A DNA stretch of 20,116 nucleotides, taken from positions 1 to 20,116 of the forward strand of contig URFM01000059.1 in assembly GCA_900547035.1 (NCBI GenBank). The letters are read 5' to 3'. Within the stretch, counting starts at the first letter, position 1; each line of letters starts with the position of its first letter. Positions 3,229 to 19,753 of the stretch are shown piece after piece. The stretch is from an uncultured Clostridium sp. Lineage in GTDB: Bacteria > Bacillota > Clostridia > Lachnospirales > Lachnospiraceae. A model generated the notes under the pieces. It saw only the letters and a program-made list of their open reading frames with translations. It was not told the DNA's origin and did not search any database. The translations under genes and the position numbers were made by a program.

Positions 3229-5874
3229 ACAACTCCTGCCTAATCTCCGTCCCCGTAGAATATCCCGCCTGCGAAAATTCGTGCCCCGCCTGCATAGCCG
3301 ACAGTTCTTCCGTATAAACTTCGAAAGATACTTTTTCTCCATCTATCTGGCAGGAATCGGGGACGGTATAGGAATAATCCTGATATCCTGCCTGAAACTC
3401 CCGAACAGCAACATATTTTCCCTCCTCAATCTTCCCAAACCGGTTCCATATAACCCCCTGATGGGTATCATGCTGTTGAATCAGGTTTCTTTTCGGGCTG
3501 TAGTAAAAGGAGCCGTAAACACCGAACTGCCCTAGGCATACCGTCTGCCCCTCGTAATAGGTATATAGATAAGCGGCAGTCGCATGAATACCATCTGGCG
3601 CAATCACCAGCTCCGGTATCTCATCCTCATCGATATACACATATTCGAATCGGGGAGATTGCGTTGCAGCCCGACTTGCGTAATATCCCGCCGGTTCCCC
3701 ATATATAAGCTCAAACTTATAGGACACCATCGCCTTCTCATAATCGGATACCTCCACCAGCTGCTCCTTTACTTCCAAAAGAGTTTCCCATGCATGGAGC
3801 ATCTGCCCCCTTTCTTCTTCCCGGTCTGTGCTGCCCTCATTAATGGAAACCAGCCGGATTTCCTCCATATCTTCCAGGGAGCAGGGCCTGGAGCTCAGCG
3901 TACCTCCATCATAGAACCAGCCGCTATAACCGGAAATGTAATTGCCTGTTATCACACAGGGAATCCCGTCCAATTTTCCTGTACAGGCCAAAATTTCCTC
4001 GGCTCCTTCCATGATAATATCCCGTCTTTCCTACGCAAACCGCTTCCTCCCCCTGGCAGGCCCAGACCTCCAGGGTATAATCGTAGTTAAAGGAATCCAT
4101 ATATCCGATGAGCAGCTCCATAGTCCCATTGCCGTCCATATCCAAAAGCTGCAGGTAATTCACTCCGCCCCCGTAAACGCACCACCCCAGATTTCTCAGT
4201 TCGAACGTCCCATATTCCGCCTCATAGGCTTTCACGACCTCGCCGTATGCCGCAAAATAGTCCGGGCGCTTTACCTGGATTTCTCCAAAGTTCCGGTAAC
4301 GGTGGGGCTGAATGGAGGCATCCACGGTTTGAAGCAGGACATCATTGCAGGAAATCTCTATCCGACAAAGTCCCTCCTCCCCTTCCAGCCTGTGGAACGC
4401 AAAACTTCCATCTGCCTCCGGAATTGTAAAAGCCAGTACCTCCCCCCTCCGAATCCCGCAGAGTAAGGTCATACAGCTCCCACTCAGGAGCTTCCTCCCC
4501 TTCCGGAGCGGTCAGGGTTCCCCGGATTCCGGCCCATAACGTATAATTCTTTGCATCCGGTTCCCGCACGAAAATGTCGGGGCCCACATTGGGATACTGG
4601 GGCCTGCCCCTTGAATTCCACTCATTCTTTGCCCTTGCAAGGGCTTTTTCCACACTATAATAATACGGTTCGTTCATGTAGGAAAAGGTCAGGGCAGCCA
4701 TGGCCTGTGAATAACCGGTATTAATATCCTCCGTCCCTTTATTGGCAATAACCACCTGAGCGCCTTTTACCAGAAACGCTTCTGCCAGCCTGTCGTCCTG
4801 GCCGCTTCTGCATGCGGACAGATAAACCATGCCCTCATCCATAGCCGGGAGGAAGATTCTTAAGTATTCCGGTGTCAGGGCATAGACATTTTTCCCTCCT
4901 ACCCGTGCCATCGTAACCATTTTAGTCCTTAAGTATACGTCCTGAATCCCGATTGCGGAGCCCAGCGCGTCACCCAGGGATTCCGCTTCCGATGTCAGAA
5001 GGACAGGCCCTAACTCCTGACAGTAGTGCCCGTGTCCATCCCATACCAGAACCTGACAGCCATCGGGAATTTCCGGGAAAAATTCCTGCTCATAGGCAAT
5101 CGTCTCCCCATGCAATTTGGTCACATCCGAAAAAGATTCCAATATCTGCTGAAGAACATCTTCCCCATCCGCTACTCCCTGCGGATTATTCCAGGCCCAT
5201 TTGACTCCATAAAAAGGAAACGCCGCCACCGTATTAATACCCTTCCCGCCTGCCAACGTATCCTGCCGGGCAGCGTGATAAAGATAGGTAAGCCCGCTGG
5301 CAAATTCCATGTAAATGGTATCATCCTGCCGACTGTAATAGGTAATGGCCCCGGCTTCCTTCTGCTCCTTTACCGCCCCTTCCGCTTCATCCATCGCCTC
5401 GGAAATCATCCCCGCATCTACTGTCCCGTCTGCTTTCTCATATGGCCGGACTGCCTCAGAGAGCGTTTCTGTACATTGTTCAAATTCCTGAATATCTTCC
5501 TGTGTCAGTTGGGCTTCCCCGGAATCCGCTCTCAGCCATCCAGCATATAAGACCAGCTCGCCCAATACTTCTTCGCCAAAGGAATACGGTTCCCGGCAGT
5601 CTTCATCCAGATACCACCTATCAAATATATAGCCCTCCCGTACAGGAAAAGGAGGGCACGTTGCCGTCCCGCCCCTGGAAATCCACTGCGTCTCCGGCGC
5701 GTATTTGATTTCATCCGTACCGGCATTGTGTTCAAAGCTTACCGGTATCTGGCCGTCTGAACTGCCGGGATTCCCTATATGCCCCCGGAGCAGATAGACT
5801 CCTGCCCCGCCTGCCGTCCCCAACATGAGTGCCGCCAGAAACGCAGCTGCTGTCTTTCCTTTGCTCCAGGACAT
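3227..5874 (-). pseudogene. Secreted InlB-repeat protein with caspase/CHAT-like His/Cys pair, split by two frameshifts
   Basis: The gene starts at 5874 after AGGAGGAGG. The first frame (to 4342) encodes a signal peptide or anchor (residues 8-30), an InlB/Flg_new-type repeat (about 43-113, with GYIFDRWYLDEDC), and a clan CD-like domain with VLVWDGHGHY (His281) and VYLSACRSG (Cys355), the His/Cys arrangement of caspase-like and CHAT peptidases. Near 4442-4447 (six C on the plus strand) the reading passes to the frame ending at 3924, with DMDGNGTMELLIGY, a calcium-loop-like or FG-GAP-like motif. Near 4020-4035 it passes to the frame ending at 3227, with YVYIDEDEIPELVI, a similar repeat. Joined, this is about 880 codons. 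As given, only a 510-residue protein with an altered tail is made; it still carries the His/Cys pair. Peptidase activity is inferred. Confidence 0.72.
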
Positions 5875-5894
5875 TTAACCTCCTCCTTTGTTTT

Positions 5895-6611
5895 TCAACC
5901 TTCCCTCCGCAGCGCCTCCACCACCGCCCGCCTGGACCTCTCCTCCACCTGCAAAGTCAGCCCCGGCTCATTGATATGCTCCAGATAATGGGCGTCAGAA
6001 TTGCTGATAATCCGACAGCCCTCCAGATACGGATGGTCCCGCAGGAGCCCGTGAAGTTTTCCCAAATCCTTGACCTCCGCCGTCACAAAGCGGCTGTCCG
6101 GAGGGATAAATCCCAGGTTGGCAATGAGACTGTTGGCGTTCTTGTCGATGTGGGCCGGAAACATAACTCCGTCAAATTTCAGAGCCAGGTCCCAAAGATC
6201 CTGAAAAGAAATCTCCGTGGCATTAATCAGAAGATTTGGCTCCTCCCCGCAAATCCGGTCATGGCAGTCGTAAATCTGCTGTCTGCCGAAGATCTCCGTT
6301 CGGTTGGGAAATTTCATCAACCGCTCATAGACGTAGGAGTCAAAATCCAGGGCCCCATCCAGATTTTCAAAAAGACAGACCGCATGGACCTCCTCCGCCG
6401 TCGTCACCTCGATGCCCGGCACAGCCAGTATCCCGTACTCCTCCGCCGCCGCCAGGAGGGCGGGGCAGTTGCGGCAGGAATTGTGGTCCGTCAGTGCAAT
6501 CAGGTCCAGTCCCTTTACCATAGCCATCCCGGCAATATTGGCCGGAGTCATATCCTCATCCCCGCAGGGTGACAGACAGGAATGGATATGTAAATCGTAA
6601 AAAAGATTCAT
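5895..6611 (-). CDS. PHP-domain metal-dependent phosphoesterase
   Basis: The start is taken at 6611 because its ATG overlaps the TGA of the upstream gene (ATGA), which implies translational coupling; the product is 238 residues. PHP metal-binding motifs are visible: DLHIHSCLSPCG (His8, His10), LTDHNSC (Asp42, His43), PGIEVTTAEEVH (Glu68, His76), PAHIDK (His154) and NSDAH (Asp206, His208). Stand-alone PHP proteins hydrolyse phosphoesters of nucleotides, sugars or proteins with a multi-metal centre; the substrate cannot be predicted here. It is the last gene of the minus-strand cassette containing the HydS-like protein, two DRTGG proteins and an ATPase. That suggests a role in removing a phosphorylated signal, but this is inference from neighbours. 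Confidence 0.88.
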   Translation of the reverse strand: MNLFYDLHIHSCLSPCGDEDMTPANIAGMAMVKGLDLIALTDHNSCRNCPALLAAAEEYGILAVPGIEVTTAEEVHAVCLFENLDGALDFDSYVYERLMKFPNRTEIFGRQQIYDCHDRICGEEPNLLINATEISFQDLWDLALKFDGVMFPAHIDKNANSLIANLGFIPPDSRFVTAEVKDLGKLHGLLRDHPYLEGCRIISNSDAHYLEHINEPGLTLQVEERSRRAVVEALRREG

Positions 6612-6943
6612 GGATTTAACAGCTGCCACACCTTCAGGGCCGCTTCAAAAACTGGCATGGAAGTGGACAGCACCGTAATTCCCTGCTGTCTGGCCTTGGC
6701 TGCGGCGTTTTCATCTAAAGCCGCATCCTCTGCCAGAATGACGCAGGCAGCATCCGCCAGAGAGGCCACCGCCAGGGTGTTGATATTGGCCATCACCGTC
6801 ACCCAGGCGCAGCCCTCGGGCGCCCGGCTCATGGCCACGCTTAAAAGATCGCAGCAAAAGGGCTCTGTAATCTGCCGTTCCAAATCATCTCCCGGATTCA
6901 CCGTCCGGAAGAGTTCCATCTCCATCAGTTCCTGCACGGTCAT
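6608..6943 (-). CDS. Stand-alone DRTGG-domain protein (second of the cassette)
   Basis: The preferred start at 6943 (MTVQELMEM, 111 residues) follows GAGGGAGAG. An in-frame ATG at 6967 lies inside the upstream gene and lacks a site. The body has the alternating strand/helix pattern of the DRTGG fold (WVTVMANINTLAVASLADAACVIL, then GITVLSTSMPVFEAALKV). This fold is otherwise known as a regulatory domain next to CBS domains or in phosphotransacetylases, and may bind a nucleotide. The conserved DRTGG letters are absent, as is common in this family. It is distantly similar to the first gene of the cassette (8781-9128), including the MTV start and the VLST turn. The start lies 59 bases inside the HydS-like gene, and its stop overlaps the PHP gene start. 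Confidence 0.75.
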   Translation of the reverse strand: MTVQELMEMELFRTVNPGDDLERQITEPFCCDLLSVAMSRAPEGCAWVTVMANINTLAVASLADAACVILAEDAALDENAAAKARQQGITVLSTSMPVFEAALKVWQLLNP

Positions 6944-8333
6944 GTTTCTCTCCCTCTTTCTTGTCAAGCAGGGACATTTCCTCGGAAATTCTCCCTATGT
7001 ACTCTTTAATCAGCTTTAAGGGCTCCTGCTTCTCGATTCCTCCGTCTACCAAATCCTCCGCCAGAAGGGAAACCTCCTCCGAAAGCTTGTGCAGATTCTC
7101 TCTCAGATAATAAACGCAGTCGCTTTCATTGGCCTCCCCCCGCACAATATCCTCCGCCAGGGCCTTGCAGGTAGGCGCTCCGCAGGAACCGCAGTCCAGC
7201 CCCGGGAACTTTTTCATCAGCCGTTCTACCTGATTCAATCTTGAAAAGCTCTCCATCATGGTATTTCCTAGGCTGAATACCGGCTCATACTGGACGCCTG
7301 TGGTCCAGGGAATAATCTGCTGGCTCAGCTCATCAATATGAGTCCTGGCCACCGGCATATATTTGCGAAGCCGTTTCAGCTTCACCTCCGCCACATAAGG
7401 ATTCTCCACTGTCAGCACGCCGCCTACGCAGCCCCCGTTGCAGGCGTTCAGCTCCACAAATCTCAGGTTGGTAAATTTCTGGTCTTCCATGTCCTCCAAA
7501 ACCCGGATTACATTTTCAATGCCGTCTGCCGCCAGATAGCTTTCGGTAAAAAGGCCGCTGGCCTCGCCGCCGCTGTGGCCCCAGCTGATACCGATTTTTC
7601 CCGCTGTTCCGATAGACGGATACTCTTCCCTCCCAACCGCCTTCATACAGGCCAGAAGCTTGGGGTACACATCTTTAATAGCCAGAACCTTATCCACCTG
7701 GCTCTTCTCCGTCCCCAGAGGAGCTTTCACATAGGTCACCTTGGAGGGACAGGGGGAAATGAAAATAATGCCGATTTTTTCCCGGGGCAGTCCTGTTTTT
7801 TCCATAGCCCTCTGTGCAGCCAGCACCGCAGCCACCTCCACCGGAGGGTTCAAAGGCAGCAGATGAGGAATCAGATTGGGAAATCTCACCCGGATCAGCC
7901 GCACCACCGAGGGGCAGGCCGTGCTGATAAATGGCAGATCTTCCTCGTGCTCGGAAATATACTGGCGGGTGGCCTCGCTGACCAGCTCCGCCGCCGCTCC
8001 CACCTCGAACACATCGTCAAAACCCATGCGGATCAGGGCGTTGAGCACAATGTTCACATCGTCCAGGTTATTAAACTGGCTGTACAGTGAAGGGGCCGGC
8101 AGAGCTACCGTATATTCGTACTGCCGGATACAATCCAGACGGTCGTAGGTCGCGTGCTTGGCGTGATGGGGACAAACCCGGATGCACTCTCCACAATCGA
8201 TGCAGAATTTATTGTTAATGCTGGCCTTGCCTCCCCGCACCCGGATGGCCTCCGTGGGGCAGCGCTTGATGCAGTTGATGCACCCCTTGCACAGGGAGGC
8301 GTCCAGCCTTACGGAATGATAAAACTTATCCAT
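6885..8333 (-). CDS. HydS-like putative sensory [FeFe] hydrogenase
   Basis: 482 residues. Two [4Fe-4S] ferredoxin motifs lie at the N-terminus (Cys15/18/21/25 and Cys44/47/50/54). The H-cluster domain follows with altered motifs: FISTACPSVV (Cys140) where catalytic enzymes have TSCCP, ISPCPSK (Cys195) in place of MPCxxK, and ELNACNGGCVGG (Cys298, Cys302) in place of ExMxCxxGCxxG. A C-terminal cluster domain has DCGSCGAPTCK plus Cys406. The four cubane-ligand cysteines are retained, while the proton-shuttle cysteine (Ala139) and two H-cluster methionines (Ser193, Asn296) are replaced. This pattern is known from HydS-type sensory hydrogenases, which are poor catalysts thought to detect H2. No PAS domain is present. 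It sits amid ATPase, DRTGG and PHP genes. The last 20 or so residues overlap the next gene. Confidence 0.85.
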   Translation of the reverse strand: MDKFYHSVRLDASLCKGCINCIKRCPTEAIRVRGGKASINNKFCIDCGECIRVCPHHAKHATYDRLDCIRQYEYTVALPAPSLYSQFNNLDDVNIVLNALIRMGFDDVFEVGAAAELVSEATRQYISEHEEDLPFISTACPSVVRLIRVRFPNLIPHLLPLNPPVEVAAVLAAQRAMEKTGLPREKIGIIFISPCPSKVTYVKAPLGTEKSQVDKVLAIKDVYPKLLACMKAVGREEYPSIGTAGKIGISWGHSGGEASGLFTESYLAADGIENVIRVLEDMEDQKFTNLRFVELNACNGGCVGGVLTVENPYVAEVKLKRLRKYMPVARTHIDELSQQIIPWTTGVQYEPVFSLGNTMMESFSRLNQVERLMKKFPGLDCGSCGAPTCKALAEDIVRGEANESDCVYYLRENLHKLSEEVSLLAEDLVDGGIEKQEPLKLIKEYIGRISEEMSLLDKKEGEKHDRAGTDGDGTLPDGESGR

Positions 8334-8343
8334 TTTCCTCGCC

Positions 8344-8766
8344 TCAAATCTTCACTTTCATGGTAATCTTAGTCCCTACTCCAAGCTGGGTTTCAATCTC
8401 CATCTCATCGGAATATTTTTTCATATTGGGCAGTCCCATGCCCGCCCCAAATCCCAGAGAACGGATCGCATCCGGAGCTGTGGAATATCCCTCCTGCATA
8501 GCCAGCGAAACATCTGGAATTCCCGGCCCTACGTCGTCCAGCACCATCAAAATCTCCTGAGGTGTAATCTCGACCATAATCTTTCCGCCTCTGGCGTGAA
8601 TCACCATGTTAATCTCACCCTCATACATAGCAATCGCCACCTTGCGGACCGCTTCCGGGCTGACTCCCAGCTGTTTTAACTTCCGCTTCACATCGCTGCT
8701 GGCCTCTCCCGCCCTGGTAAAATCATCCGGGGATATTTCATAATTTAAACGAATTGCATCCTCCAT
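8344..8766 (-). CDS. RsbW/RsbT-like ATP-binding protein (HATPase fold, anti-sigma-type kinase)
   Basis: 140 residues, nearly all of it one GHKL ATP-binding domain. The N box is AMYEGEINMVIHARGG (Glu49, Asn53, His57), the G1 box DDVGPGIPD (Asp78, Gly80, Gly82), the G2 region LGFGAGMGLPNMKKY (105-116), and the last motif GVGTKI. Small proteins of this build (SpoIIAB, RsbW, RsbT) are serine kinases or switch proteins that bind sigma factors or STAS-domain partners. No sigma factor or STAS gene is in the window, so the partner is unknown. The start at 8766 follows AAGGGGGAAAG by about six bases. The stop lies 10 bases before the HydS-like gene, so the two are co-transcribed. Confidence 0.88.
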   Translation of the reverse strand: MEDAIRLNYEISPDDFTRAGEASSDVKRKLKQLGVSPEAVRKVAIAMYEGEINMVIHARGGKIMVEITPQEILMVLDDVGPGIPDVSLAMQEGYSTAPDAIRSLGFGAGMGLPNMKKYSDEMEIETQLGVGTKITMKVKI

Positions 8767-8780
8767 ATTACTTTCCCCCT

Positions 8781-9128
8781 TCAGCTGGCTCCCCCATGAA
8801 GTCCTGCCGCATAAAGCATTCCACAGGCGGAAAACATTCTGTGTCCGGTGGATAAAACTACCAGTCCCCGTTCCTTTGCCATCTCCAGCATTGCCTCATC
8901 AGGCTTCTTTCCCCTGACAAAAATCAGACAGACAATATCCAGCATCTCCGCGGTGCGAATCACCTGCGGATTGCAAAGCCCTGTCAGCAAAATGGAGTGA
9001 TCCTTGGAAAAAGCCAGTACGTCGCTCATCATATCCGAACCGCAGGCGGTGCGCACTTCCCGGTCCAGATGTTCCTCCCCGACCAGAACCCGCGCACCTA
9101 AAATGTCTCTTGCATCTTTAACCGTCAT
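8781..9128 (-). CDS. Stand-alone DRTGG-domain protein (first gene of the minus-strand cassette)
   Basis: The start at 9128 (MTVKDARDILG, 115 residues) is preferred over upstream ATGs at 9185 and 9155 because AAAGGAGAGG lies just before it and because its paralogue in the same cassette also begins MTV. The domain shows the DRTGG pattern: a strand with a small-residue turn (TACGSDMMSDVLAF), ILLTGLCNPQVIRTA, then CLIFVRGKKPDEAMLEMAKE and GLVVLSTGHRMFSACGML. It has no catalytic motif. Stand-alone copies next to hydrogenase and ATPase genes recur in Clostridia as far as I recall, with unknown role; a small-ligand or redox-linked regulatory function is a guess. Confidence 0.78.
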   Translation of the reverse strand: MTVKDARDILGARVLVGEEHLDREVRTACGSDMMSDVLAFSKDHSILLTGLCNPQVIRTAEMLDIVCLIFVRGKKPDEAMLEMAKERGLVVLSTGHRMFSACGMLYAAGLHGGAS

Positions 9129-9345
9129 ACCTTTCCTCTCCTTTTTCTTTCCCATGGTTGAACGAAATCTGCTGGTATCCTTCATAATAGTCTATCACAT
9201 TTCGCTGGATATTTTCAACATATACTTCTATTTTCCCCCTTCCACAATCGTTAGTTTTTTCACATTGACTGTGGATTTTTTTTATATTGTGTGTTAGAAT
9301 ATTGTTACATTGCACAATGCACAACACGTAAGGAGGTAAAAACGA
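9129..9345. promoter_or_regulatory. Divergent control region between the sensory cassette and the hydrogenase operon
   Basis: The 217-bp gap separates two divergent operons. Minus side: TTGAAA (complement of 9213-9218) and TAGACT (complement of 9189-9194) with an 18-base spacer form a modest promoter candidate. Plus side: TTAGAAT at 9294-9300 preceded by TG gives an extended -10, with no good -35 at the right distance; TTGACT at 9265-9270 is too far. Downstream of that -10 lie the arms CATTG/CAATG (9308-9319) and a tandem TGCACAA repeat (9311-9317, 9318-9324), placed where a repressor could block the start. The plus operon has a strong AAGGAGGT at 9330-9337. Confidence 0.5.
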
Positions 9346-9840
9346 ATGGCTTGCAAAAAACCAACCGTTCCATTCTCTGGAACGCCGGAGCAGGAGGCAG
9401 AACTGAAGGCCGCGATTGCGGAACTTAAGAACGAGCCTGGTGCTCTGATGCCTGTCATGCAGAAAGCGCAGGAAATCTATGGCTACCTTCCCATCGAAGT
9501 ACAGACCATGATTTCCGACGAAATGGGTATTCCGTTGGAAAAGGTCTACGGAGTATCCACATTTTATGCCCAATTTGCCTTACAGCCCAAGGGCAAATAC
9601 AAAATTTCCGTCTGTCTTGGCACTGCCTGTTATGTAAAGGGCTCCGGAGATATTTTTAACAAGCTGGAGGAGATTCTTGGCATCACCAGCGGCGAGTGTA
9701 CCCCGGACGGCAAATTCTCTCTGGATTCCTGCCGCTGTGTGGGAGCATGCGGACTGGCCCCCGTTATGATGATCAACGGCGAGGTTTACGGACGCCTGAC
9801 TCCTGACGACGTGCCTGGTATCCTGGCCAAATATAATTAA
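9346..9840 (+). CDS. NuoE-like [2Fe-2S] subunit of the NAD(H)-linked [FeFe] hydrogenase
   Basis: 164 residues, the usual length of the 24-kDa NuoE/HydC type. A helical N-terminal part (about 1-80, with YGYLPIEV and VYGVSTFYAQF) precedes a thioredoxin-like domain whose four ligands are visible as CLGTAC (Cys90, Cys95) and CRCVGAC (Cys131, Cys135). The subunit carries electrons between the NADH site of the NuoF-like subunit and the other clusters. It is the first gene of a five-gene operon ending with HydA, the arrangement of trimeric or tetrameric bifurcating hydrogenases such as Thermotoga HydABC. The start at 9346 is fixed by AAGGAGGT. The gene name hydC is used in some organisms, but naming varies. 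Confidence 0.93.
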   Translation: MACKKPTVPFSGTPEQEAELKAAIAELKNEPGALMPVMQKAQEIYGYLPIEVQTMISDEMGIPLEKVYGVSTFYAQFALQPKGKYKISVCLGTACYVKGSGDIFNKLEEILGITSGECTPDGKFSLDSCRCVGACGLAPVMMINGEVYGRLTPDDVPGILAKYN

Positions 9841-9845
9841 CGCTT

Positions 9846-10403
9846 ATGCTGCCTGAGATTTCCTTAAACGTATTGGATATTGCGGAGAACTCTACCAGAG
9901 CAGGAGCCGCCTTGGTCTCCATTCTTGTAAAGGTCAATCACAAGGACGATACTTTGACCGTAACCATCGGCGACAACGGCTGCGGCATGACGCCGGAGCA
10001 GGTAAGCCATGTAACCGACCCCTTTTTCACCACCAGAACTACCAGGAAGGTAGGGCTGGGCGTTCCGTTTTTCAAGCTTGCCGCGGAAAGCACCGGCGGG
10101 CACTTCCATATTGAATCGGAACCGGGAAAAGGCACCTCGGTAACTGCGGTGTTTGGGTTGTCGCATATCGACCGGATGCCTCTGGGGGACATTACTTCCA
10201 CAATCCACAATCTGATCATCTACCATCCGGATACGGATTTCATCTATACATACCAGTATGATGACAGCTCGTTTACACTGGATACCAGGCAGATGCGGGA
10301 AATCCTGGATGGAATTCCCTTAAACGCGCCGGAGGTATCAGACTACATTTTAGAATATCTGACGGAAAACAAACAGGAAACCGACGGTGGAGCCATCATC
10401 TAG
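9846..10403 (+). CDS. Stand-alone HATPase-fold protein inside the hydrogenase operon
   Basis: 185 residues. It has the GHKL ATP-binding boxes: N box VLDIAENSTRAGA (Glu14, Asn15), G1 GDNGCGM (Asp43, Gly45, Gly47), F box DPFFTTR (58-64), G2 GLGVPFFKLA (70-79) and GKGTSV. These resemble histidine kinase catalytic domains, but there is no dimerisation/phosphoacceptor helix and no sensor region. The last 80 residues are an unassigned C-terminal part. It begins 5 bases after the NuoE-like stop with no clear Shine-Dalgarno, so translational coupling is likely. Similar ATPase genes lie in other clostridial hydrogenase operons; the substrate is unknown. It may phosphorylate or bind another protein, or regulate the enzyme, but no partner is evident. 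Confidence 0.87.
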   Translation: MLPEISLNVLDIAENSTRAGAALVSILVKVNHKDDTLTVTIGDNGCGMTPEQVSHVTDPFFTTRTTRKVGLGVPFFKLAAESTGGHFHIESEPGKGTSVTAVFGLSHIDRMPLGDITSTIHNLIIYHPDTDFIYTYQYDDSSFTLDTRQMREILDGIPLNAPEVSDYILEYLTENKQETDGGAII

Positions 10404-10461
10404 TGTACAGGCTCCCCTGCACAATCTTTTGGCACTCTTTTAGAAGGAGGAAGGTTAAGAC

Positions 10462-10839
10462 ATGAAAACTCTTGCAGAATTAAAAGCAATTCGTGAAAAG
10501 ATGCAGAGCCAGGTCAATCTGCGTGCCGAAGACCACGACCACATTCGCGTGGTAGTTGGCATGGCTACCTGCGGTATCGCCGCAGGCGCAAGACCTGTTT
10601 TAAATACCCTTGCACAGGAAGTTCAAAAAAAAGGGCTGACGGACAAAATTTCCGTTACCCAAACCGGCTGCATCGGATTATGCCAATACGAGCCCATCGT
10701 TGAGGTCATGGAACCCGGTAAAGAAAAAGTTACCTATGTGAAAATGAACCCCGAAAAAGCCATGGAGGTTCTGGAGCGCCATCTGATCGGCGGCCATGTG
10801 GTTGACAAATACACCATGGGCACCGCGGATGTAAAGTAA
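10462..10839 (+). CDS. Small thioredoxin-like ferredoxin of the hydrogenase operon
   Basis: 125 residues, thioredoxin-like [2Fe-2S] ferredoxin family (HndB-like). Visible motifs are GMATCGIAAGARPVL (Cys37) and TQTGCIGLCQYEP (Cys70, Cys74). The normal C-x4-C pair of the family is reduced to a single Cys, since position 42 is Gly; only three cysteines exist in the whole protein. The cluster therefore may need a non-Cys ligand or a partner residue, or may be absent. The start follows GAAGGAGGAAGG. It lies 15 bases before the NuoF-like gene and belongs to the same transcript, so it is presumably an accessory or small subunit of the complex. Confidence 0.88.
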   Translation: MKTLAELKAIREKMQSQVNLRAEDHDHIRVVVGMATCGIAAGARPVLNTLAQEVQKKGLTDKISVTQTGCIGLCQYEPIVEVMEPGKEKVTYVKMNPEKAMEVLERHLIGGHVVDKYTMGTADVK

Positions 10840-10854
10840 AGGAGGAATCCCATC

Positions 10855-12645
10855 ATGTATCGTTCACATGTACTTGTCTGCGGCGGCACCGGATGTACTT
10901 CCTCCGGAAGCCCCCAGATCATGGAAGCTTTAAAATATGAGATCAAACGTCAGGGCCTGGAAGATGAGGTGGCGGTAGTAGAAACCGGCTGTCACGGACT
11001 CTGTGCCTTAGGCCCCATCATGATTGTATACCCGGATGCCACCTTCTATTCCATGGTGCAGCCCGGAGACATCCCCGAGATCGTTTCTGAGCATCTTCTG
11101 AAGGGCCGTGTGGTCACCCGACTGCTCTACCAGGAAACCGTCAGTCCTTCCGGCGGTATTAAGGCTTTAAGCGATACGGATTTTTACAAAAAGCAGCACC
11201 GCATTGCCTTACGTAACTGCGGCGTCATCAATCCGGAAAATATTGAAGAGTACATCGGTACCGGCGGATATGAAGCTCTTGGCAAGGTACTGACGGAAAT
11301 GACCCCTGATGATGTGATTCAGGTTCTCCTGGATTCAGGCCTGCGGGGCCGCGGCGGAGCCGGATTCCCCACCGGTCTGAAGTGGAAGCTGTGCAAGCAG
11401 AACGATGCGGATCAGAAATATGTCTGCTGCAACGCCGACGAGGGCGACCCCGGCGCGTTCATGGACCGTTCCGTTCTGGAGGGCGATCCCCATGCGGTAC
11501 TGGAGGCCATGGCCATCGCAGGATACGCCATCGGAGCAAACCAGGGCTATATCTACGTTCGTGCCGAATATCCCATCGCTGTTGAACGTCTGAAAATTGC
11601 CATCAAGCAGGCCAGAGAGATGGAACTTCTGGGAAAGAATATCTTCGGCTCCGGCTTTGACTTTGATATTGACCTGCGCCTGGGCGCCGGCGCATTCGTC
11701 TGCGGCGAGGAGACGGCTCTCATGACCTCCATCGAGGGCAAGAGAGGCGAACCCAGACCCAGACCGCCCTTCCCGGCTCAGAAAGGACTTTTTGGAAAGC
11801 CCAGCATTTTAAATAACGTGGAAACCTATGCCAACATTCCCCAGATCATCTTAAACGGCCCTGAGTGGTTCGCCTCCATGGGTACGGAGAAGTCCAAGGG
11901 CACCAAGGTATTCGCCTTAGGCGGCAAGATCCACAACACGGGACTGGTGGAGGTTCCCATGGGAACCACCCTGCGAACCGTCATCGAGGAGATCGGCGGC
12001 GGCATCCCCAACGGAAAGAAATTCAAGGCAGCCCAGACCGGCGGCCCCTCCGGCGGATGTATCCCAGCCGAGCATTTTGACGTTCCCATCGACTATGACA
12101 ACCTGATTGCCATCGGCTCCATGATGGGTTCCGGCGGACTGATCGTCATGGACGAGGACGACTGTATGGTGGACATCGCCAAGTTCTTCCTGGAATTCAC
12201 CGTAGAGGAATCCTGCGGAAAATGTACCGCCTGCCGTATTGGAACCAAGCGTATGCTGGAAATTCTCACCAAGATCACCAAAGGACAGGCCACCATGGAG
12301 GATCTGGATAAGCTGGAAGATCTGTGCTACTATGTCAAGAGCAACTCTCTGTGCGGACTGGGCCAGACGGCTCCTAACCCGGTGCTCTCCACCCTGCGGT
12401 ATTTCCGCGATGAGTATGAGGCCCATATCAAGGAGAAACGCTGTCCCGCGGGAGTCTGCAAGGCGCTGCTCTCCTACAACATTGACCGTGATAAGTGCCG
12501 GGGATGTACTTTATGTGCCCGCACCTGCCCGGCCGGCGCCATCATGGGTTCCGTGAAGAATCCTCATGTCATCGACCAGACCAAGTGCATCAAATGCGGC
12601 GCCTGCATGGAGAAATGTAAGTTCGGCGCAATCTACAAGAAATAG
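10855..12645 (+). CDS. hydB: NuoF-like flavoprotein subunit (HydB type) of the NAD(H)-linked [FeFe] hydrogenase
   Basis: 596 residues with the full HydB layout. Residues 1-95 form an N-terminal thioredoxin-like [2Fe-2S] domain (Cys9, Cys14, Cys46, Cys50). An FMN- and NADH-binding part of about 120-330 carries GRGGAGFPTG (165-174) and the NADEGDPG segment. An SLBB-like linker lies near 340-430. The NuoF [4Fe-4S] motif ESCGKCTACRIGT (Cys454, 457, 460, with Cys500) follows. The tail has two ferredoxin clusters (Cys548/551/554/558 and Cys578/581/584/588). This subunit oxidises or reduces NAD(H) at FMN and is the probable bifurcation site that couples NADH and ferredoxin to H2. The start at 10855 follows AAAGGAGG. 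The HydA gene begins 18 bases after its stop. Confidence 0.95.
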   Translation: MYRSHVLVCGGTGCTSSGSPQIMEALKYEIKRQGLEDEVAVVETGCHGLCALGPIMIVYPDATFYSMVQPGDIPEIVSEHLLKGRVVTRLLYQETVSPSGGIKALSDTDFYKKQHRIALRNCGVINPENIEEYIGTGGYEALGKVLTEMTPDDVIQVLLDSGLRGRGGAGFPTGLKWKLCKQNDADQKYVCCNADEGDPGAFMDRSVLEGDPHAVLEAMAIAGYAIGANQGYIYVRAEYPIAVERLKIAIKQAREMELLGKNIFGSGFDFDIDLRLGAGAFVCGEETALMTSIEGKRGEPRPRPPFPAQKGLFGKPSILNNVETYANIPQIILNGPEWFASMGTEKSKGTKVFALGGKIHNTGLVEVPMGTTLRTVIEEIGGGIPNGKKFKAAQTGGPSGGCIPAEHFDVPIDYDNLIAIGSMMGSGGLIVMDEDDCMVDIAKFFLEFTVEESCGKCTACRIGTKRMLEILTKITKGQATMEDLDKLEDLCYYVKSNSLCGLGQTAPNPVLSTLRYFRDEYEAHIKEKRCPAGVCKALLSYNIDRDKCRGCTLCARTCPAGAIMGSVKNPHVIDQTKCIKCGACMEKCKFGAIYKK

Positions 12646-12663
12646 TAAGGGAGGGAACAGACC

Positions 12664-14409
12664 ATGGAAACCATTAATCTGAAAATCAACGGCATTTCGG
12701 TCAGCGCCCCCAAGGGTTCTACCATCCTGGAAGCTGCCAGACTGGCCCACATTGAGATCCCTACTCTGTGTTTCTTGAAGGAGATCAATGAGATTGGCGC
12801 CTGCCGTATCTGTATTGTAGAACTGAAAAACGGCAAGATGGTAACATCCTGCGTATATCCGGCTGAGGAGGGCATGGAGGTATTTACCAACACCCCCAGA
12901 GTCCTGGATTCCAGAAAAAAGACGCTTCAGCTGCTTTTATCCAATCACAACCGTTCCTGCCTCTCCTGCGTCCGCAGCGGACACTGCGAGCTTCAGGAAC
13001 TGGCTCATTCCCTGGGAGTAGAGGATGAGTCCTACTACGACGGCGAGATGACGGAAACTGAGATCGACACTTCCGCCGCCCACATGATCCGGGACAACAG
13101 CAAGTGCATTCTCTGCCGCCGCTGCGTGGCAGTCTGCGAGAATGTCCAGGGCATCGGCGTCATCGGCGCCAACCACCGCGGCTTCCAGACTCAGATCGGC
13201 TCCGCCTTTGAGATGGGACTGGGCGAAACCTCCTGCGTATCCTGCGGACAGTGCATCGCGGTCTGCCCCACCGGCGCTCTGACCGAAAAAGACAGCACCG
13301 CCGATGTTTATGCTGCCATCGCCGATCCGAAGAAGCATGTCATCGTGCAGACGGCTCCCGCTGTCCGGGCTGCTCTGGGCGAGGAATTTGGACTTCCCAT
13401 CGGCACCAATGTAGAAGGAAAAATGGCCGCGGCCCTGCGCCGTCTCGGCTTTGACAAGGTATTTGACACCGACTTTTCCGCGGACCTGACCATTATGGAG
13501 GAGGCCCACGAGTTTATTGACCGGGTGCAGAACGGCGGCGTTCTTCCCCTGATCACCTCCTGCTCCCCCGGCTGGGTGAAATACTGCGAGCACTATTTCC
13601 CGGATATGACGGAGAATCTGTCCTCCTGCAAATCGCCTCAGCAAATGTTCGGAGCCATTGCCAAATCCTACTATGCGGAGAAGGCCGGCATTGATCCGAA
13701 GGACATCGTCAGCGTCAGCGTGATGCCCTGTACCGCCAAGAAATTCGAGATCGGACGCCCGGATGAGGATGCCAACGGTGTTCCGGATGTGGATTTCTCC
13801 ATCACCACCAGAGAACTGGCCCGGATGATCAAAAAGTCCGGCATCCGCTTCCTGGATCTGCCCGATGAGAAGTTCGATGAGCCCTTGGGCCTTGGCACCG
13901 GCGCAGGCGTGATCTTTGGCGCGACCGGCGGCGTGATGGAGGCGGCTTTAAGAACCGCAGTGGAAACCCTCACCGGAGAAGAGCTGCCCAAGCTGGACTT
14001 CACCGAAGTCCGGGGTACCAAGGGTATCAAGGAGGCCACATACAACGTAGCTGGTATGGAAGTAAAAGTAGCGGTAGCCTCCGGCCTGGGCAATGCCAGA
14101 GAACTGCTTAATAAAGTAAAGTCCGGCGAAGCTCACTACCACTTTATTGAAATTATGGGATGTCCCGGCGGCTGCGTCAACGGCGGCGGACAGCCTCAGC
14201 AGCCAGGCTATGTACGCAATACTACCGATATTCGGGCTCTCAGAGCTAAGGTTCTCTACGACAGCGATGCAGCTAACCCCATCCGCAAGTCCCATGAGAA
14301 TCCTGCTATCAAGGAACTCTATGCCACTTATCTTGGCGAGCCCGGAAGCGAGAAGGCCCACCACCTGCTGCATACGACTTATGTGAAGAGGAGTATTAAT
14401 CAGCATTAA
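12664..14409 (+). CDS. hydA: [FeFe] hydrogenase catalytic subunit HydA (multi-subunit, probably electron-bifurcating)
   Basis: 581 residues. In order: a plant-type [2Fe-2S] domain (Cys36, 47, 50, 63); a His-Cys [4Fe-4S] motif (His95, Cys99, 102, 108); two [4Fe-4S] clusters (Cys148/151/154/158 and Cys191/194/197/201); the H-cluster domain with TSCSPGW (298-304), VMPCTAKK (Cys356) and EIMGCPGGCVNGGGQP (Cys500, Cys504); and a C-terminal small-subunit-like tail ending near YATYLG. It reduces protons or oxidises H2 in the cytoplasm. Together with the NuoE- and NuoF-like genes upstream it fits group A3 bifurcating hydrogenases. The second cysteine of the usual TSCCP motif is Ser here. The start follows AAGGGAGGG, and a large terminator follows the stop. 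Confidence 0.95.
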   Translation: METINLKINGISVSAPKGSTILEAARLAHIEIPTLCFLKEINEIGACRICIVELKNGKMVTSCVYPAEEGMEVFTNTPRVLDSRKKTLQLLLSNHNRSCLSCVRSGHCELQELAHSLGVEDESYYDGEMTETEIDTSAAHMIRDNSKCILCRRCVAVCENVQGIGVIGANHRGFQTQIGSAFEMGLGETSCVSCGQCIAVCPTGALTEKDSTADVYAAIADPKKHVIVQTAPAVRAALGEEFGLPIGTNVEGKMAAALRRLGFDKVFDTDFSADLTIMEEAHEFIDRVQNGGVLPLITSCSPGWVKYCEHYFPDMTENLSSCKSPQQMFGAIAKSYYAEKAGIDPKDIVSVSVMPCTAKKFEIGRPDEDANGVPDVDFSITTRELARMIKKSGIRFLDLPDEKFDEPLGLGTGAGVIFGATGGVMEAALRTAVETLTGEELPKLDFTEVRGTKGIKEATYNVAGMEVKVAVASGLGNARELLNKVKSGEAHYHFIEIMGCPGGCVNGGGQPQQPGYVRNTTDIRALRAKVLYDSDAANPIRKSHENPAIKELYATYLGEPGSEKAHHLLHTTYVKRSINQH

Positions 14410-15048: not shown

Positions 15049-17343
15049 TTAATCTTCTTTTAATTCCTCCGCAGCCGACTCCTCCATTACCCTCCATCTC
15101 AGCACTACCCGGAACAAATCTCCCTCCACAGACAATTCCATCGTGCCGTCCTGAAGTTCCGTAAAGCTCTTGGCAATGGCCAGTCCTAGGCCGGAGCCCT
15201 CCGTATTCCTGGATTCGTCTCCCCGGACAAACCGCTCCATCAGCTCCTGGGGAGATACGGTCACCTCCGCCGCGGAAATATTCATCAAAGTAATGACTAC
15301 CCACCCATCCTGTGTTTCCAAGGTCACATAGGCCCGGGTGTTCGGCATGGCGTATTTTGTAATGTTTACCAGAAGATTTTCAAAAATCCGGTAGGTCCGC
15401 TGTCCGTCCAGATTGGCGATTACCTTTTCTTCCGGCAGCTTCCAGCGGAAATCCACGCCGCAGCCGGCGATTCGCTCAGAAAGCTCCAGTCGTACTTCTT
15501 TTATAAGACTCACCAGATCCACCGGCTCCAGATTGAGATTCACGCTCCCGCTGCTGGCCTTGCTGACCTCGAACAAATCCTCAATCAGCACCTTCAGGCG
15601 CATAGACTTCTGCTCCAGCACATCAATGTAGGAATCCCTCTCCTCTTCTGTAATTCCCGGCTGTTTCAAAAGATTCACATAGGTGATAATAGCCGTCAAA
15701 GGCGTTTTTAAATCGTGGGACACATTGGTAATCAGCTCCGTCTTGGTCCGCTCGCTTTTTACTTCCTGGTCCACCGCCTTTTTAAATCCCTGGCGGACCC
15801 GAGCCAGCTGCTCCTTCAGCGGTTCAAAAAGTCCCAGATTTTCCGTTACATCCACATCTAAATTCCCTTCTGCCATCTGGTTGATCGCATTTAACAGAAC
15901 ATCGTATTTTTTCTGCATCTGCTTCCAATATCTCTGAATCAGTACAAACAGCACCAGAGAGTAGATAATCAGAACACCAATTCCCGCAAACCATAGCAGA
16001 GAAATCAGAGCCAGAATAATGAAGTTGGCAATAACCGCCTTTCCAATAGCCTTGGTAGAATTGGAATGCCAGTCCACCTCATTAAAGGGATTCAGACAGC
16101 GTACCACCCACCGTTTTATAAAGCGGCAGAATCTCAAAATCCAGGTTCTCTCCTTCAGATACCGCCACAATCCCAGCCGGAACACAGCGCCGGCACTAAC
16201 CGCCATCCAGAAGAGACTCCCGTAGACGAACATCCACATGGCCAGGTTTGCCAGAAATTCCAGGATCTCTGCCACAGCAGGCAAAATGCCCGCATCCGTC
16301 AGTTCCCGGATGATTTCTCCTCGGGTAGTCAGCTCAATCATCCCCGCCGGTACACCGCCGCATACAAGAGCGGTCCAGCAAAGAGCCAAAAAGCACATAG
16401 GTTCAAAGGACAGACGGCTGCACCTTCCCTCTCCAAGCCCCAGAGGCCGGACAGCCGGAAGAATCAGGGCTAAAAGAGCCAATACGCCTCCGATTGTGGC
16501 CACTACTCCATAATATCCTCCGGAACTGACATAATCGTGAAGCATAGGAGTTGTAGGGCCGTCGAGATATCGGAAATCCTCCAGATCAAACTGATACACA
16601 AAATTAACATCCTTAGGTCCTGAAAACACTACGCCGCTGTAGCGGTAATCCCCTGAAAGCCGCAGCTCCAGCGGGTCATAAAACTGGTAATTTGTCATCA
16701 AATTGCCCATTCGGTCCCTGTTTGCATCGGAGCCATCTACCGATTTCACTTCCATGGAACCGGATTCATCAAAATATAAAGAAAGGCGGATTTGTCCGTT
16801 TTCCAGCTTACGGGAAAAAAATGCCGATGGATTCTCCACATTGCTGCCCAAAACCTTTCCCTGCCGGTCCAGCATTTCATAAGGAAGGATCCGGCTGTAC
16901 TCCCTTGCAAAGGACTGCCACTCCTGTCCTACCGAATCCATCGTGGCCTGCAGGTCCTCATAATAATAGGCGTCATAGGATAGATTCTCAGAATCTTCCC
17001 AGGTTTCGTCGCCAGAAACGCTGCTCGATCCCTGACCGCTTTGTTTCTGGCGGATTTTCTCTTCCAATCCCGGCAGGAATACCTGGGAAGGAGTAAGAAT
17101 TTGTCCCGCTTCCTTCTGTTTCTGCTCCCGCCATGCCTGATAAATGCTGTTCATGATCTGTATGGAAGCAGAGTACTCCGCCTTACTGCTTTCCTCCATG
17201 GACTGCTCATAGCCCTCATGCCATCTTAACGCTTTCTCCTGCATATAGGGATATGCCAATACCGTTAAAAGGGACGCCGCCGTTACCAGCAGCAAGCAGA
17301 GACATACGCTGACTCTATGGCTGTTTTTCAATTTTGTATCCAA
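15049..17343 (-). CDS. Membrane sensor histidine kinase
   Basis: 764 residues. A first membrane helix (about 11-33) is followed by a roughly 240-residue extracellular region that I cannot assign, then helices near 278-300, 316-336, 362-388 and 436-470. A HAMP-like segment (NQMAEGNLDVDV, 488-499) leads to the H box NVSHDLKTPLTA with phosphoacceptor His543, then an N box (FENLLVNITKYAM) and the G2 motif GSGLGLAIAKS. The usual DxGxG box is replaced by NISAAE, common in this VanS-like subgroup. It phosphorylates the response regulator encoded just upstream. The TTG at 17343 overlaps the regulator gene by 29 bases; a second in-frame TTG at 17331 sits better behind GGGGAG, so the start is uncertain. 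The signal is unknown. Confidence 0.9.
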   Translation of the reverse strand: MDTKLKNSHRVSVCLCLLLVTAASLLTVLAYPYMQEKALRWHEGYEQSMEESSKAEYSASIQIMNSIYQAWREQKQKEAGQILTPSQVFLPGLEEKIRQKQSGQGSSSVSGDETWEDSENLSYDAYYYEDLQATMDSVGQEWQSFAREYSRILPYEMLDRQGKVLGSNVENPSAFFSRKLENGQIRLSLYFDESGSMEVKSVDGSDANRDRMGNLMTNYQFYDPLELRLSGDYRYSGVVFSGPKDVNFVYQFDLEDFRYLDGPTTPMLHDYVSSGGYYGVVATIGGVLALLALILPAVRPLGLGEGRCSRLSFEPMCFLALCWTALVCGGVPAGMIELTTRGEIIRELTDAGILPAVAEILEFLANLAMWMFVYGSLFWMAVSAGAVFRLGLWRYLKERTWILRFCRFIKRWVVRCLNPFNEVDWHSNSTKAIGKAVIANFIILALISLLWFAGIGVLIIYSLVLFVLIQRYWKQMQKKYDVLLNAINQMAEGNLDVDVTENLGLFEPLKEQLARVRQGFKKAVDQEVKSERTKTELITNVSHDLKTPLTAIITYVNLLKQPGITEEERDSYIDVLEQKSMRLKVLIEDLFEVSKASSGSVNLNLEPVDLVSLIKEVRLELSERIAGCGVDFRWKLPEEKVIANLDGQRTYRIFENLLVNITKYAMPNTRAYVTLETQDGWVVITLMNISAAEVTVSPQELMERFVRGDESRNTEGSGLGLAIAKSFTELQDGTMELSVEGDLFRVVLRWRVMEESAAEELKED

Positions 17344-18025
17344 CTCCCCACACCACCTTTACATATTTCGGGTCCTTGGGATTTACTTCGATTTTCTCGC
17401 GGATATTCCGGATATGGACCATCACTGTGTCCGTATTCACCGCCCGCTCGTTCCAGACCCTCTCATAGATTTCATCCGCCGGAAATACCCGGCCCGGATT
17501 CTGAATCAGCAGCAGGAGGATTCGGTATTCAATGGGAGTCAGCTTCACCGGCTTGTCATCTACCGTCACCTCCACGGTCTCCTCGTTAATTTCGAGGCCT
17601 CCCAGGCGGTGAATTTTCGGATTATCCGGCTGCTTCTGGTTCAGCCGCTCCATAAAGCGGTGGTAGCGGCGCAGTTGGGAATTGACTCTGGCCAAAAGCT
17701 CCATAGGGGTAAATGGCTTAGTAATATAATCGTCTGCCCCCATATTCAGGCCCAGAATCTTATCCACATCCTCCGACTTGGCCGACAGGAAAATCACCGG
17801 AAAATCATACTTTTCTCTCAGACGGACCACCATAGTGATGCCGTCCATTCTGGGCATCATCACATCTACAATGGCCAGCTGAACCTCCTCCTGCTCCAGG
17901 ATTTTCAATCCTTCCACGCCATCCGCGGCCTGAAGAACCTGGTATCCCTGGCTTCTCAGGAAAATTTCAACTCCCTCTCTGATTTCCTTGTCATCCTCTA
18001 CCAGCAGAATCCGATCCGCTCCCAT
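17315..18025 (-). CDS. OmpR/VanR-type response regulator
   Basis: The start is placed at 18025 (MGADRILLVEDD, 236 residues) because AAGGAGG lies 8 bases upstream; an earlier in-frame ATG at 18046 lies before that site and is less likely. The receiver domain spans about 4-118 with acidic pocket Asp11/Asp12, phosphoacceptor Asp54 (AIVDVMMPRMDG), switch Ser81 and Lys103 (YITKPF). The winged-helix DNA-binding domain follows (about 135-233), with PIEYRILLLL, ERVWNE and TVMVHIRNIREKI. It overlaps the histidine kinase gene by 29 bases, so the two are co-translated as a two-component system. Target genes are unknown, and no obvious direct-repeat binding site was found upstream. Confidence 0.95.
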   Translation of the reverse strand: MGADRILLVEDDKEIREGVEIFLRSQGYQVLQAADGVEGLKILEQEEVQLAIVDVMMPRMDGITMVVRLREKYDFPVIFLSAKSEDVDKILGLNMGADDYITKPFTPMELLARVNSQLRRYHRFMERLNQKQPDNPKIHRLGGLEINEETVEVTVDDKPVKLTPIEYRILLLLIQNPGRVFPADEIYERVWNERAVNTDTVMVHIRNIREKIEVNPKDPKYVKVVWGVGYKIEKQP

Positions 18026-18117
18026 ACACCCTTCCTCCTTGCTCATGATGGTATCTTAACAGCCAAAACAAAAAAGCGTCTTCATAAAATGTAAAAGATT
18101 TTCTAAAGATTCCGCGC

Positions 18118-18298: not shown

Positions 18299-19753
18299 TT
18301 AGTGGCGATGCATAGAGAACTTGTCCATGGGGTAATTCTTTAAGTTCTCTCTTACTTTCCGGCCATCGGCCTCTCCCAGCAGTTTGTCCCGATCCTTCTT
18401 GAACTCGTTTTCCGCCTTGCGCTTGCTGGGACCGCCTACGCAGCCTCCCACACAGGCCATGCCTTCGATAAAATCCTCAGGCAGACGGTTTACTTTCAGC
18501 ATTAACAGAGCCTTCTTGCACTCCACGGCGCCGCTGCAGCGGGCAACTTTAATACCATCGGTGCTCTCTCCGGCTTCCTGCATGCACTCCAGAACCGCGT
18601 TGGTCACGCCGCCGCCGTTTCCGAAGCGCTTTCCGAAAATGGAACTCTCCTGGTAGTCATTGGGCTCGGGCTCCAAATCCACGCCCTTGGCCTGTATCAT
18701 GTTGTAAATCTCTTCCAAATTTAAAACATAATCTGCATTGTCCTTTACATTTAAGTCCAAAGCCTCGCTCTTCTTGGCAATGCAGGGTCCGATGAACACG
18801 GTAATGGTTTCCGGATCCATAGCCTTCAACAGTCTCGATACAGCGCACATGGGTGATACGGTGGTGGACATATTATCTAAAAGCATGGGGAAATGCTTCT
18901 TGATCATGTTCACGAAAGCGGGACAACAGGAAGTGGTCATCTTTTTGCCTTCCTTATAGGCCTCTACCCACTCATCAGCCTCATAGGCGGCAGTCATGTC
19001 TCCTCCCAGTCCTACCTCCACCATATCGGCGAATCCTACCTTCTTCAAGGCTGTTTTCCAGCTGGCCATGGTAATCTCAGGTCCAAACTGTCCCTCCACG
19101 GAAGGAGCTACCATTGCCACCACCTTCTTGCCTGCCTTAATCAGCTTGATTACGTCCACCACAAAGGTCTTGGAATCAATCGCGCCGAAGGGGCAGCTGT
19201 GTACGCAGTTTCCGCACTCGATGCACTTCTTCTCATCGATTTCACAGATTCCGTACTCATCGTATGTAATGGCATCCACCGGGCAGCTCTTCTTACAGGG
19301 ACGCTCCAGGTGAGCGATGGCGTTGTAAGGACAGGCCTGGGAACATTTTCCGCAGGACTTACATTTTCCGGGGTCAATATAGGCCCGGTCACGGCCCATA
19401 CTGATGGCGCCGAAATTACAAGAATTCTGACATGCTTTTCCCATACATTTCTGGCAGTTGTCCGTTACCACGTAAGCGGCGATGGGACATTCCTCACATG
19501 CCGCATTGATAACCTGCACCACGTTTGCGGAATCCTTGCCCTTGGGACATTTTCCCTCTGCCAGACGAACTCTCTGGCGGATAATCTCTCTCTCTTTATA
19601 GATGCAGCACCGGTACTGAGCCTGGGGGCCGGGAATAATATCGTAAGGAATATCGTGCTCCTTCTCCTTCAGGTTGTCCTCCCAAGCGGCTTTGGAAACC
19701 GCGTAGAGCACCTCGTGCTTCAGCTTCAATATTGTCGCATCATTGGTTACCAT
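18299..19753 (-). CDS. Group B-like monomeric [FeFe] hydrogenase
   Basis: 484 residues. The N-terminus (1-95) contains four scattered Cys, including NAACEECP. A multi-cluster ferredoxin region follows (Cys100/103/108/112, Cys131/134/137/141, Cys153/157, Cys177/180/183/187). The H-cluster domain has TTSCCPAF (Cys276, Cys277), IGPCIAKK (Cys324) and EGMACVGGCVGG (Cys434, Cys438). All cubane ligands and the proton-shuttle Cys are present, but the M of MPCxxK is Gly. These motif variants fit group B [FeFe] hydrogenases, frequent in Clostridia and physiologically little studied; ferredoxin is the likely partner. The start at 19753 follows GAGGAGG. It is a single-gene transcript with its own promoter and terminator. 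Confidence 0.9.
   Translation of the reverse strand: MVTNDATILKLKHEVLYAVSKAAWEDNLKEKEHDIPYDIIPGPQAQYRCCIYKEREIIRQRVRLAEGKCPKGKDSANVVQVINAACEECPIAAYVVTDNCQKCMGKACQNSCNFGAISMGRDRAYIDPGKCKSCGKCSQACPYNAIAHLERPCKKSCPVDAITYDEYGICEIDEKKCIECGNCVHSCPFGAIDSKTFVVDVIKLIKAGKKVVAMVAPSVEGQFGPEITMASWKTALKKVGFADMVEVGLGGDMTAAYEADEWVEAYKEGKKMTTSCCPAFVNMIKKHFPMLLDNMSTTVSPMCAVSRLLKAMDPETITVFIGPCIAKKSEALDLNVKDNADYVLNLEEIYNMIQAKGVDLEPEPNDYQESSIFGKRFGNGGGVTNAVLECMQEAGESTDGIKVARCSGAVECKKALLMLKVNRLPEDFIEGMACVGGCVGGPSKRKAENEFKKDRDKLLGEADGRKVRENLKNYPMDKFSMHRH

Follow-up and report, generated by a model that had tools for sequence, protein, structure and literature searches.

A conserved five-gene cassette around a putative sensory [FeFe]-hydrogenase in Clostridia: a candidate redox-signalling relay

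Analysis of contig URFM01000059.1 (assembly GCA_900547035.1) from an uncultured Clostridium sp. of the Lachnospiraceae, whose whole stretch of 20,116 nucleotides is referred to here as the window, confirmed five open reading frames (ORFs) on the minus strand, running from 9128 to 5895 in the order DRTGG1, ATPase, HydS, DRTGG2 and PHP (Table 1). This gene set, which was found in near-constant order across the class Clostridia, may form a redox-signalling relay around the hydrogenase HydS. The first three intergenic distances were 14, 10 and -59 bases, the start of DRTGG2 lying 59 bases inside the end of HydS, and the last was an overlap of -22 bases with the GTG start of PHP or -4 bases with the in-frame ATG at 6611, which suits its relatives better (among the matches listed, mostly 236–243 aa). 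DRTGG1 starts at the ATG at 9128, preceded by a GGAGAGG-like site. The first-pass annotation had proposed a tight five-gene set in this order; all of its ORFs were found there, and its unity is upheld by gene order throughout the class.

Table 1. Features of the cassette and its surroundings in the window
Feature	Coordinates	Strand	Basis or remark
DRTGG1, single DRTGG domain, 115 aa	8781..9128	-	Pfam PF07085, AlphaFold, Foldseek
RsbW/SpoIIAB-like GHKL ATPase, 140 aa	8344..8766	-	HATPase_c_2; nearest solved structure SpoIIAB
HydS, group D (M2e)-type sensory [FeFe]-hydrogenase	6885..8333	-	Fe_hyd_lg_C, Fer4 and FeS domains
DRTGG2, 111 aa	6608..6943	-	PF07085 below cut-off; conserved residues
PHP metal-dependent phosphoesterase (start GTG 6629 or ATG 6611)	5895..6629	-	PF02811
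HydC-HydE-HydD-HydB-HydA operon, divergent from the cassette	9346..14409	+	Pfam, NCBIfam
HydE, second ATPase	9846..10403	+	HATPase_c, 61.4 bits
Shared divergent promoter region	9129..9345	.	TTGAAA-18-TAGACT promoter-like site for the cassette

Co-occurrence was surveyed in 391 genomes of the class Clostridia, the seed genome (G001) included. Matches to the HydS query fell into two score classes, with 184 genomes at E ≤1.9e-85 and 44 at 9.0e-45 to 2.0e-27, the latter probably representing other hydrogenases, while 163 of the 391 gave no HydS match at 1e-25. The ATPase query (1e-15, same genomes) was positive in 185, comprising 181 of the 184 genomes with a group D HydS and 4 of the 207 others (Fisher p 6.6e-103, kinship ignored). 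In the three HydS genomes without the ATPase (G055, G090 and G344) the contig ends at the HydS start, and two of the four ATPase genomes without a group D HydS (G340 and G138) end directly after the ATPase, leaving G232 and G202.

For gene order, 169 of the 184 genomes were examined at a single locus each, the other 15 being left out. HydS was in place in 166 of these loci, and hidden Markov models (HMMs) recovered all five genes in order in 150 of the 166. Among the remaining 16, seven are cut by sequence ends and nine, under the edge rule, have a part missing or moved, including L107 with only 1.5 kb downstream and L179, which starts 573 bases before the ATPase. In two more of the nine, L185 and L186, the DRTGG2-PHP pair sits four genes further on. 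Median distances between neighbouring domains in the class loci were 11, 35, 26.5 and 14 bases. Within the Lachnospiraceae, all five genes lay in order on one strand in 75 of 80 loci by tblastn and 74 of 80 by HMM, the closest HydS relative found being that of an uncultured Enterocloster (L001, 93% identity). Beyond the class our sample included a single record, from Parabacteroides distasonis (L172, NZ_OY725779.1), with the order DRTGG1-ATPase-HydS-DRTGG2-PHP-HydE, a HydS of 38% identity and two DRTGG genes matched by the Pfam model, one of them below cut-off; no HydABC was found within ~8 kb, which shows that HydE can come after PHP where the other hyd genes are missing. Conserved co-occurrence beyond close relatives, on which the earlier proposal had been made to depend, was therefore found both in genome content and in gene order.

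The Parabacteroides record is labelled a plasmid; it looks like a chromosomal contig because gyrA is present. Two cassettes per genome were observed in G194 and G311 (L181, L191 and L192), and a Lachnospiraceae-like cassette with a HydS 75% identical occurred in a metagenome-assembled genome titled Planctomycetia (L063), which is probably mis-binned or mislabelled.

HydS consists of two N-terminal [4Fe-4S] motifs and the H-domain, and no PAS domain was detected by Pfam in the window protein. Its eight N-terminal and four H-cluster cysteines were each conserved in 167 of 167 loci, as were C381, C384 and C389 of a C-terminal CX2CX4CX16C motif, the fourth cysteine of which (C406) was present in 165. 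The active-site surroundings were altered: the proton-path C299 site is A139 in the window and alanine in 141 of 167 loci, the M353 site is S193 and either threonine or serine in 166 of 167, and the M497 site is N296. The published hallmarks of group D (M2e) are the same domain layout, the absence of the proton-path C299 and the replacement of M353 by a hydroxyl residue (PMC8163306). From its motif signature HydS is assigned to the group D (M2e) sensory type, to which TamHydS, the Thermoanaerobacter mathranii enzyme, belongs. Cthe_0335 of Clostridium thermocellum is also listed as group D. The C. phytofermentans gene Cphy_3798 has been named group D M2e, and such genes are reported to sit with trimeric bifurcating hydrogenases (Carere 2012, PMC3561251); the locus of another strain of this species (L071) contained the full cassette, with a HydS 73% identical to that of the window. 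The sensor-type H-cluster first read from the window alone is upheld by the altered active-site residues and by the group D motifs.

The ATPase matched HATPase_c_2 (39.6 bits) and HATPase_c, and its nearest solved structure was SpoIIAB (1til, E 1.9e-12). Residues E49, N53, D78, G80, G82, G107, G109 and G111, corresponding to the GHKL ATP-binding motifs with the N-box, were conserved in 165 of 165 loci, and E49 is presumably the counterpart of the catalytic glutamate of SpoIIAB. This agrees with the initial description of an anti-sigma-like ATPase, in that the protein is SpoIIAB-like with an intact predicted ATP site. The curated family cut-offs were missed (57.4 vs 135 bits for the SpoIIAB model and 17.9 vs 145 for the RsbW model), so the protein may work like SpoIIAB or RsbW and is not classed as either. 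No STAS or sigma domain was found by Pfam among 20 window proteins scanned, sigma factors outside the window not being part of the search. A second cassette-type ATPase was observed in G146 adjoining an MsrA/MsrB gene (L180, 2186-2767), with no DRTGG1 or HydS within the stretch.

DRTGG1 matched PF07085 at 32.7 bits (cut-off 25.2; scanned from 9185), and its AlphaFold model, with a mean predicted local distance difference test (pLDDT) score of 90.9, matched 2ioj in Foldseek at E 1.8e-7 (query template modelling score 0.82), followed by the DRTGG domain of CBS-PPase and by HPr kinase. The model thus places DRTGG1 within the fold of solved DRTGG domains. D32, S35, T49 and K74 were conserved in 161 of 163 loci and R58 in 156; the homologue search reached close relatives only (best 120 of 7529 listed). 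DRTGG2, scanned minus its first three residues, scored 19.8 bits against PF07085, under the cut-off, and had D32, S35, T49 and N55 conserved in 162 of 162 loci.

The PHP protein matched PF02811 at 34 bits, and D12, H14, H16, D48, H49, E74 and H82 were present in 155 of 155 loci, H160 in 154 and D212 and H214 in 152, the remainder being gaps. We take these ten residues to be the metal ligands of the family, and the predicted ligand set is complete. The structure model (mean pLDDT 92.5) was nearest, among the matches listed, to EndoQ (5zb8, E 2.7e-8), followed by a putative phosphoesterase, RNase AM, other PHP phosphoesterases and polymerase PHP domains, with an amidohydrolase bound to adenosine monophosphate (AMP) at rank 13. 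No chain titled CpsB or YwqE was among the matches listed (10 of one search and 50 of another), no direct comparison with these being made. To judge from the modelled fold, the substrate looks more like nucleic acid or nucleotide than phosphoprotein. The proposal that PHP resets the signal did not gain support from these folds, as resemblance to nucleic-acid and nucleotide phosphoesterases (EndoQ, RNase AM and the AMP-bound amidohydrolase) leaves such a role unproven. Homologues were taken from the best 120 of 7998 listed, close relatives only. C22, near the HxH motif, was also invariant (155 of 155 loci).

Partial loci gave some indication of which parts belong together. In L178 DRTGG1 overlaps the ATPase with no other cassette gene, and no HydS match was found in that genome at E 1e-10, while in L185 and L186 a DRTGG1-ATPase-HydS group stands apart from DRTGG2-PHP-HydC-HydE. 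These layouts suggest two arms, DRTGG1-ATPase(-HydS) and DRTGG2-PHP-HydE. Among 23 cassette genomes tested for STAS domains, some of them with short contigs, 20 gave PF01740 matches, each either on a different contig from the cassette or ~39 kb or more from it; the other three, which are small genomes, gave no match to PF01740 or PF13466. As no STAS gene lies near the cassette and the DRTGG1-ATPase pair can be kept alone, DRTGG1 is the likeliest partner of the ATPase; the ATPase-DRTGG pairing suggested by the first-pass annotation thereby gains support for DRTGG1 through L178, where that pair is all that is kept.

The genomic surroundings were analysed where a class locus extended 6 kb or more downstream, as was the case in 115 of the 169, and the remaining 54 were left out. 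HydC-HydE-HydB-HydA followed downstream on the same strand in 58 of the 115 loci, and in 10 the cassette lay within the hyd operon, preceded by HydC and followed by HydE/HydB/HydA. A further 10 showed HydC/HydE/HydB without HydA (in L185 and L186 the stretch ends), seven had only HydE near the cassette and two were mixed. In the Lachnospiraceae, HydC was divergent in 70 of the 71 loci with all five genes where it was found. The cassette had been described as divergent from the catalytic hydrogenase operon, which holds for the window and for this family and fails in the wider class, where the cassette is co-directional with the hyd operon or inside it. HydA of the window scored 919.5 bits against NCBIfam NF040763, the group A6 NADH-dependent hydrogenase.

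RnfC- or RnfD-like ORFs lay on the cassette strand in 15 of 271 sequences, none of them among L001–L080, and in L177, L179 and L285 the genes were checked against Pfam or NCBIfam. Eight of these loci had HydC/E/D/B with no HydA in the stretch, one likewise and without HydS (L177), four had HydE only (two without HydS) and two had the full hyd set. Since the cassette can also stand before rnf genes where HydA was not observed, what the loci have in common seems to be ferredoxin/NAD(H) machinery and not H2 only, and H2 alone as the subject of the cassette was not supported. In G217 a relocated HydS gene was observed upstream, on the same strand, of an NqrB/C/D/E/F-like set (L271, 7983-9242 and 3559-7519) recognised by PF03116, FMN_bind, two Rnf-Nqr and Fer2-FAD-NAD; the 464 bases that separate HydS from this set contain no NqrA-like gene.

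Among other neighbours, the commonest cluster occurred in 22 of 166 loci and a PyrK/PyrD/PyrE-like run, read by eye, in 17–18, many flanks being short and ORFs below 100 aa excluded from this count. In the window, a two-component system (15049-18046) is followed by a second, group B monomeric hydrogenase (TIGR04105, 598 bits; 18299-19753), and a hydrogenase of this group was also near the hyd operon in several relatives. A 510-aa protein with a Listeria-Bacteroides repeat (4342-5874) follows PHP by 20 bases on the same strand, and looks local because tblastn found no match to it in the loci of 80 relatives. Alignment of 67 sequences showed parts of the promoter region to be conserved. A scan of 5700-9500 for promoter-like sites found three, including that of the cassette, vs 3.0 expected by chance. 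Inverted repeats (9241-9249 with 9267-9275) and a palindrome (9292-9309) also lie in this region, and a shared regulator could bind at 9241-9309. A Rex operator was considered and rejected for this promoter, as a search of the window for Rex-like patterns, one mismatch being allowed, gave a single match at 1966, outside the promoter and at chance level; strict Rex-like patterns were present in 2, 1, 0 and 1 of the 67 intergenic stretches, by pattern, and not in the window.

Several known systems resemble the cassette in part. TamHydS shares with cassette HydS the domain plan, the CX2CX4CX16C motif, the lost proton path and the hydroxyl residue at the M353 site, and its locus likewise has a histidine-kinase-like ATPase adjoining and a trimeric bifurcating hydrogenase downstream (PMC8163306). 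The neighbours named in the excerpt of that paper are the ATPase and an AraC regulator, DRTGG and PHP proteins not being named in it. Group C sensors (TmHydS, R. albus HydS and HfsB) are also putative H2 sensors with a C-terminal FeS cluster and a position near another hydrogenase, and differ, according to the literature, in having a PAS domain. At the group C loci of R. albus and Monoglobus the sensor adjoined a SpoIIE-type phosphatase (Pfam SpoIIE for R. albus) and another hydrogenase, and no DRTGG/ATPase/PHP cassette was found at these two loci; they match the hfs operon, which encodes the serine-phosphatase-like HfsC (PMC11837493), and deletion of hfsB is reported to raise hydrogenase activity and ethanol production (PMC5707799). 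With group C beside a SpoIIE phosphatase and group D beside a SpoIIAB-type kinase, a parallel between the two may exist, as judged from few loci. The SpoIIAB/RsbW partner-switching kinases are like the cassette ATPase in their GHKL family, N-box Glu/Asn and Gly-rich boxes, whereas the cassette has no STAS antagonist, sigma factor or PP2C and holds a DRTGG protein in the neighbouring place. The regulatory [NiFe]-hydrogenase system has a different metal site and works through a histidine kinase and a response regulator. It too couples a hydrogenase-like sensor to a kinase, with HoxJ and HoxA (mentioned in PMC5707799).

A regulatory link between group D HydS, a kinase and the bifurcating hydrogenase is a hypothesis already in print (PMC3561251, PMC3492117 and PMC8163306). 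Sensory hydrogenases, kinases or phosphatases were proposed to regulate adjacent bifurcating hydrogenases (Carere 2012, PMC3561251; Rydzak 2012, PMC3492117), the same gene order was described in Thermoanaerobacter (Verbeke 2013, PMC3608648) and a sensory role was proposed for group D (Land 2020). Among the papers listed in our literature search, none was found to mention the DRTGG or PHP components, the near-obligate joint presence of the genes or a link to Rnf, with mention in older work possible.

Taken together, we give an even chance to the reading that the cassette relays redox signals in anaerobes, with a group D sensory [FeFe]-hydrogenase at its centre and a ferredoxin/NAD(H) machine as its output. 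HydS would bind H2 or exchange electrons with ferredoxin, its H-cluster being tuned, by analogy with TamHydS, away from fast turnover, and a conformational change would control the SpoIIAB-like protein, whose conserved ATP-site residues are consistent with kinase activity. The kinase would act with DRTGG1, which replaces the usual STAS antagonist, and DRTGG2, PHP and HydE would form a second arm, in which PHP, with its metal-site residues and fold, probably terminates or modulates the signal through cleavage of a phosphate-containing compound. To judge from gene order, the output would be the level or activity of HydABC here and of Rnf in some other genomes.

A number of observations weigh against this relay. 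In L257 and L267 the order is DRTGG1-ATPase-DRTGG2-PHP-HydE, and HydS is found at another place in the genome (the third of the 169 loci without HydS in place, L270, is a cut locus), and L177 keeps ATPase-DRTGG2-PHP without DRTGG1 or any group D HydS. No hyd gene was found near the cassette in 28 of 115 loci, and eight of these, extended downstream, showed no hyd or rnf gene in 19–19.9 kb except a 23-bit ATPase match in L279. No gene fusions occurred among 271 sequences, the one multi-domain ORF consisting of ferredoxin-type repeats, and the C-terminal cluster of TamHydS was reported to be unresponsive to H2 (2026 study, PMC13104023). In mean-field direct coupling analysis of the 15 pairs of six proteins (effective depth 94–157, no null made), the top z for DRTGG1-ATPase was 9.1, below those for HydS-PHP (15.8), HydS-HydE (13.2) and PHP-HydE (12.9), and in all 15 pairs inter-protein couplings made up a smaller part of the top scores than expected from area. 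Coevolution did not discriminate between pairs and was set aside as partner evidence.

Alternatively, control may be post-translational, the ATPase and HydE acting directly on HydABC or Rnf by phosphorylation or chaperone-like remodelling, with PHP reversing the effect, the DRTGG proteins serving as adaptors and no transcriptional output. The loci with the cassette inside the hyd operon are in keeping with this, as is HydE, present in 80 of the 80 loci (among the 115) that show HydC and HydB; moreover, no extra family occurred in more than 22 of 166 loci, which argues that no transcription factor is a constant member. The 28 loci without hyd genes, including the eight extended ones, count against direct action, which we regard as unlikely. 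In a classical anti-sigma system the ATPase would hold back a sigma factor from another locus until HydS frees it, and the closest solved relatives of the ATPase are indeed anti-sigma F factors. However, the ATPase falls under the curated SpoIIAB cut-off, the cassette had no STAS neighbour in the 23 genomes tested, and another ATPase match in G001 adjoins a STAS gene (3060252, 3060691), as SpoIIAA-SpoIIAB would be, so that a classical anti-sigma role appears very improbable. Equally improbable is a purely metabolic role for HydS, as a hydrogenase of low rate, with the rest of the operon made up of passengers or accessory functions: all H-cluster cysteines are present and TamHydS reversibly turns over H2 at a low rate (PMC8163306), but the proton-path cysteine site is alanine in most loci and the five-gene order is so widely held.

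The relay reading can be extended to a widespread, previously unnamed module of anaerobes from two or more phyla. Here the protein switched by the SpoIIAB-like kinase would be a DRTGG and not a STAS protein, a hydrogenase-type sensor would control the switch, and the module would govern ferredoxin/NAD machines (HydABC or Rnf); this extension is tentative and, in our judgement, somewhat doubtful. If true, it would represent a new class of partner switch for the redox state of the cell. The cassette points to possible partners, so far missing, for a class of sensor hydrogenases that is known but lacks an explanation, and its near-obligate composition supplies concrete candidate partners in gut and fermentative bacteria, where the balance of H2 and ferredoxin helps to decide the fermentation products.

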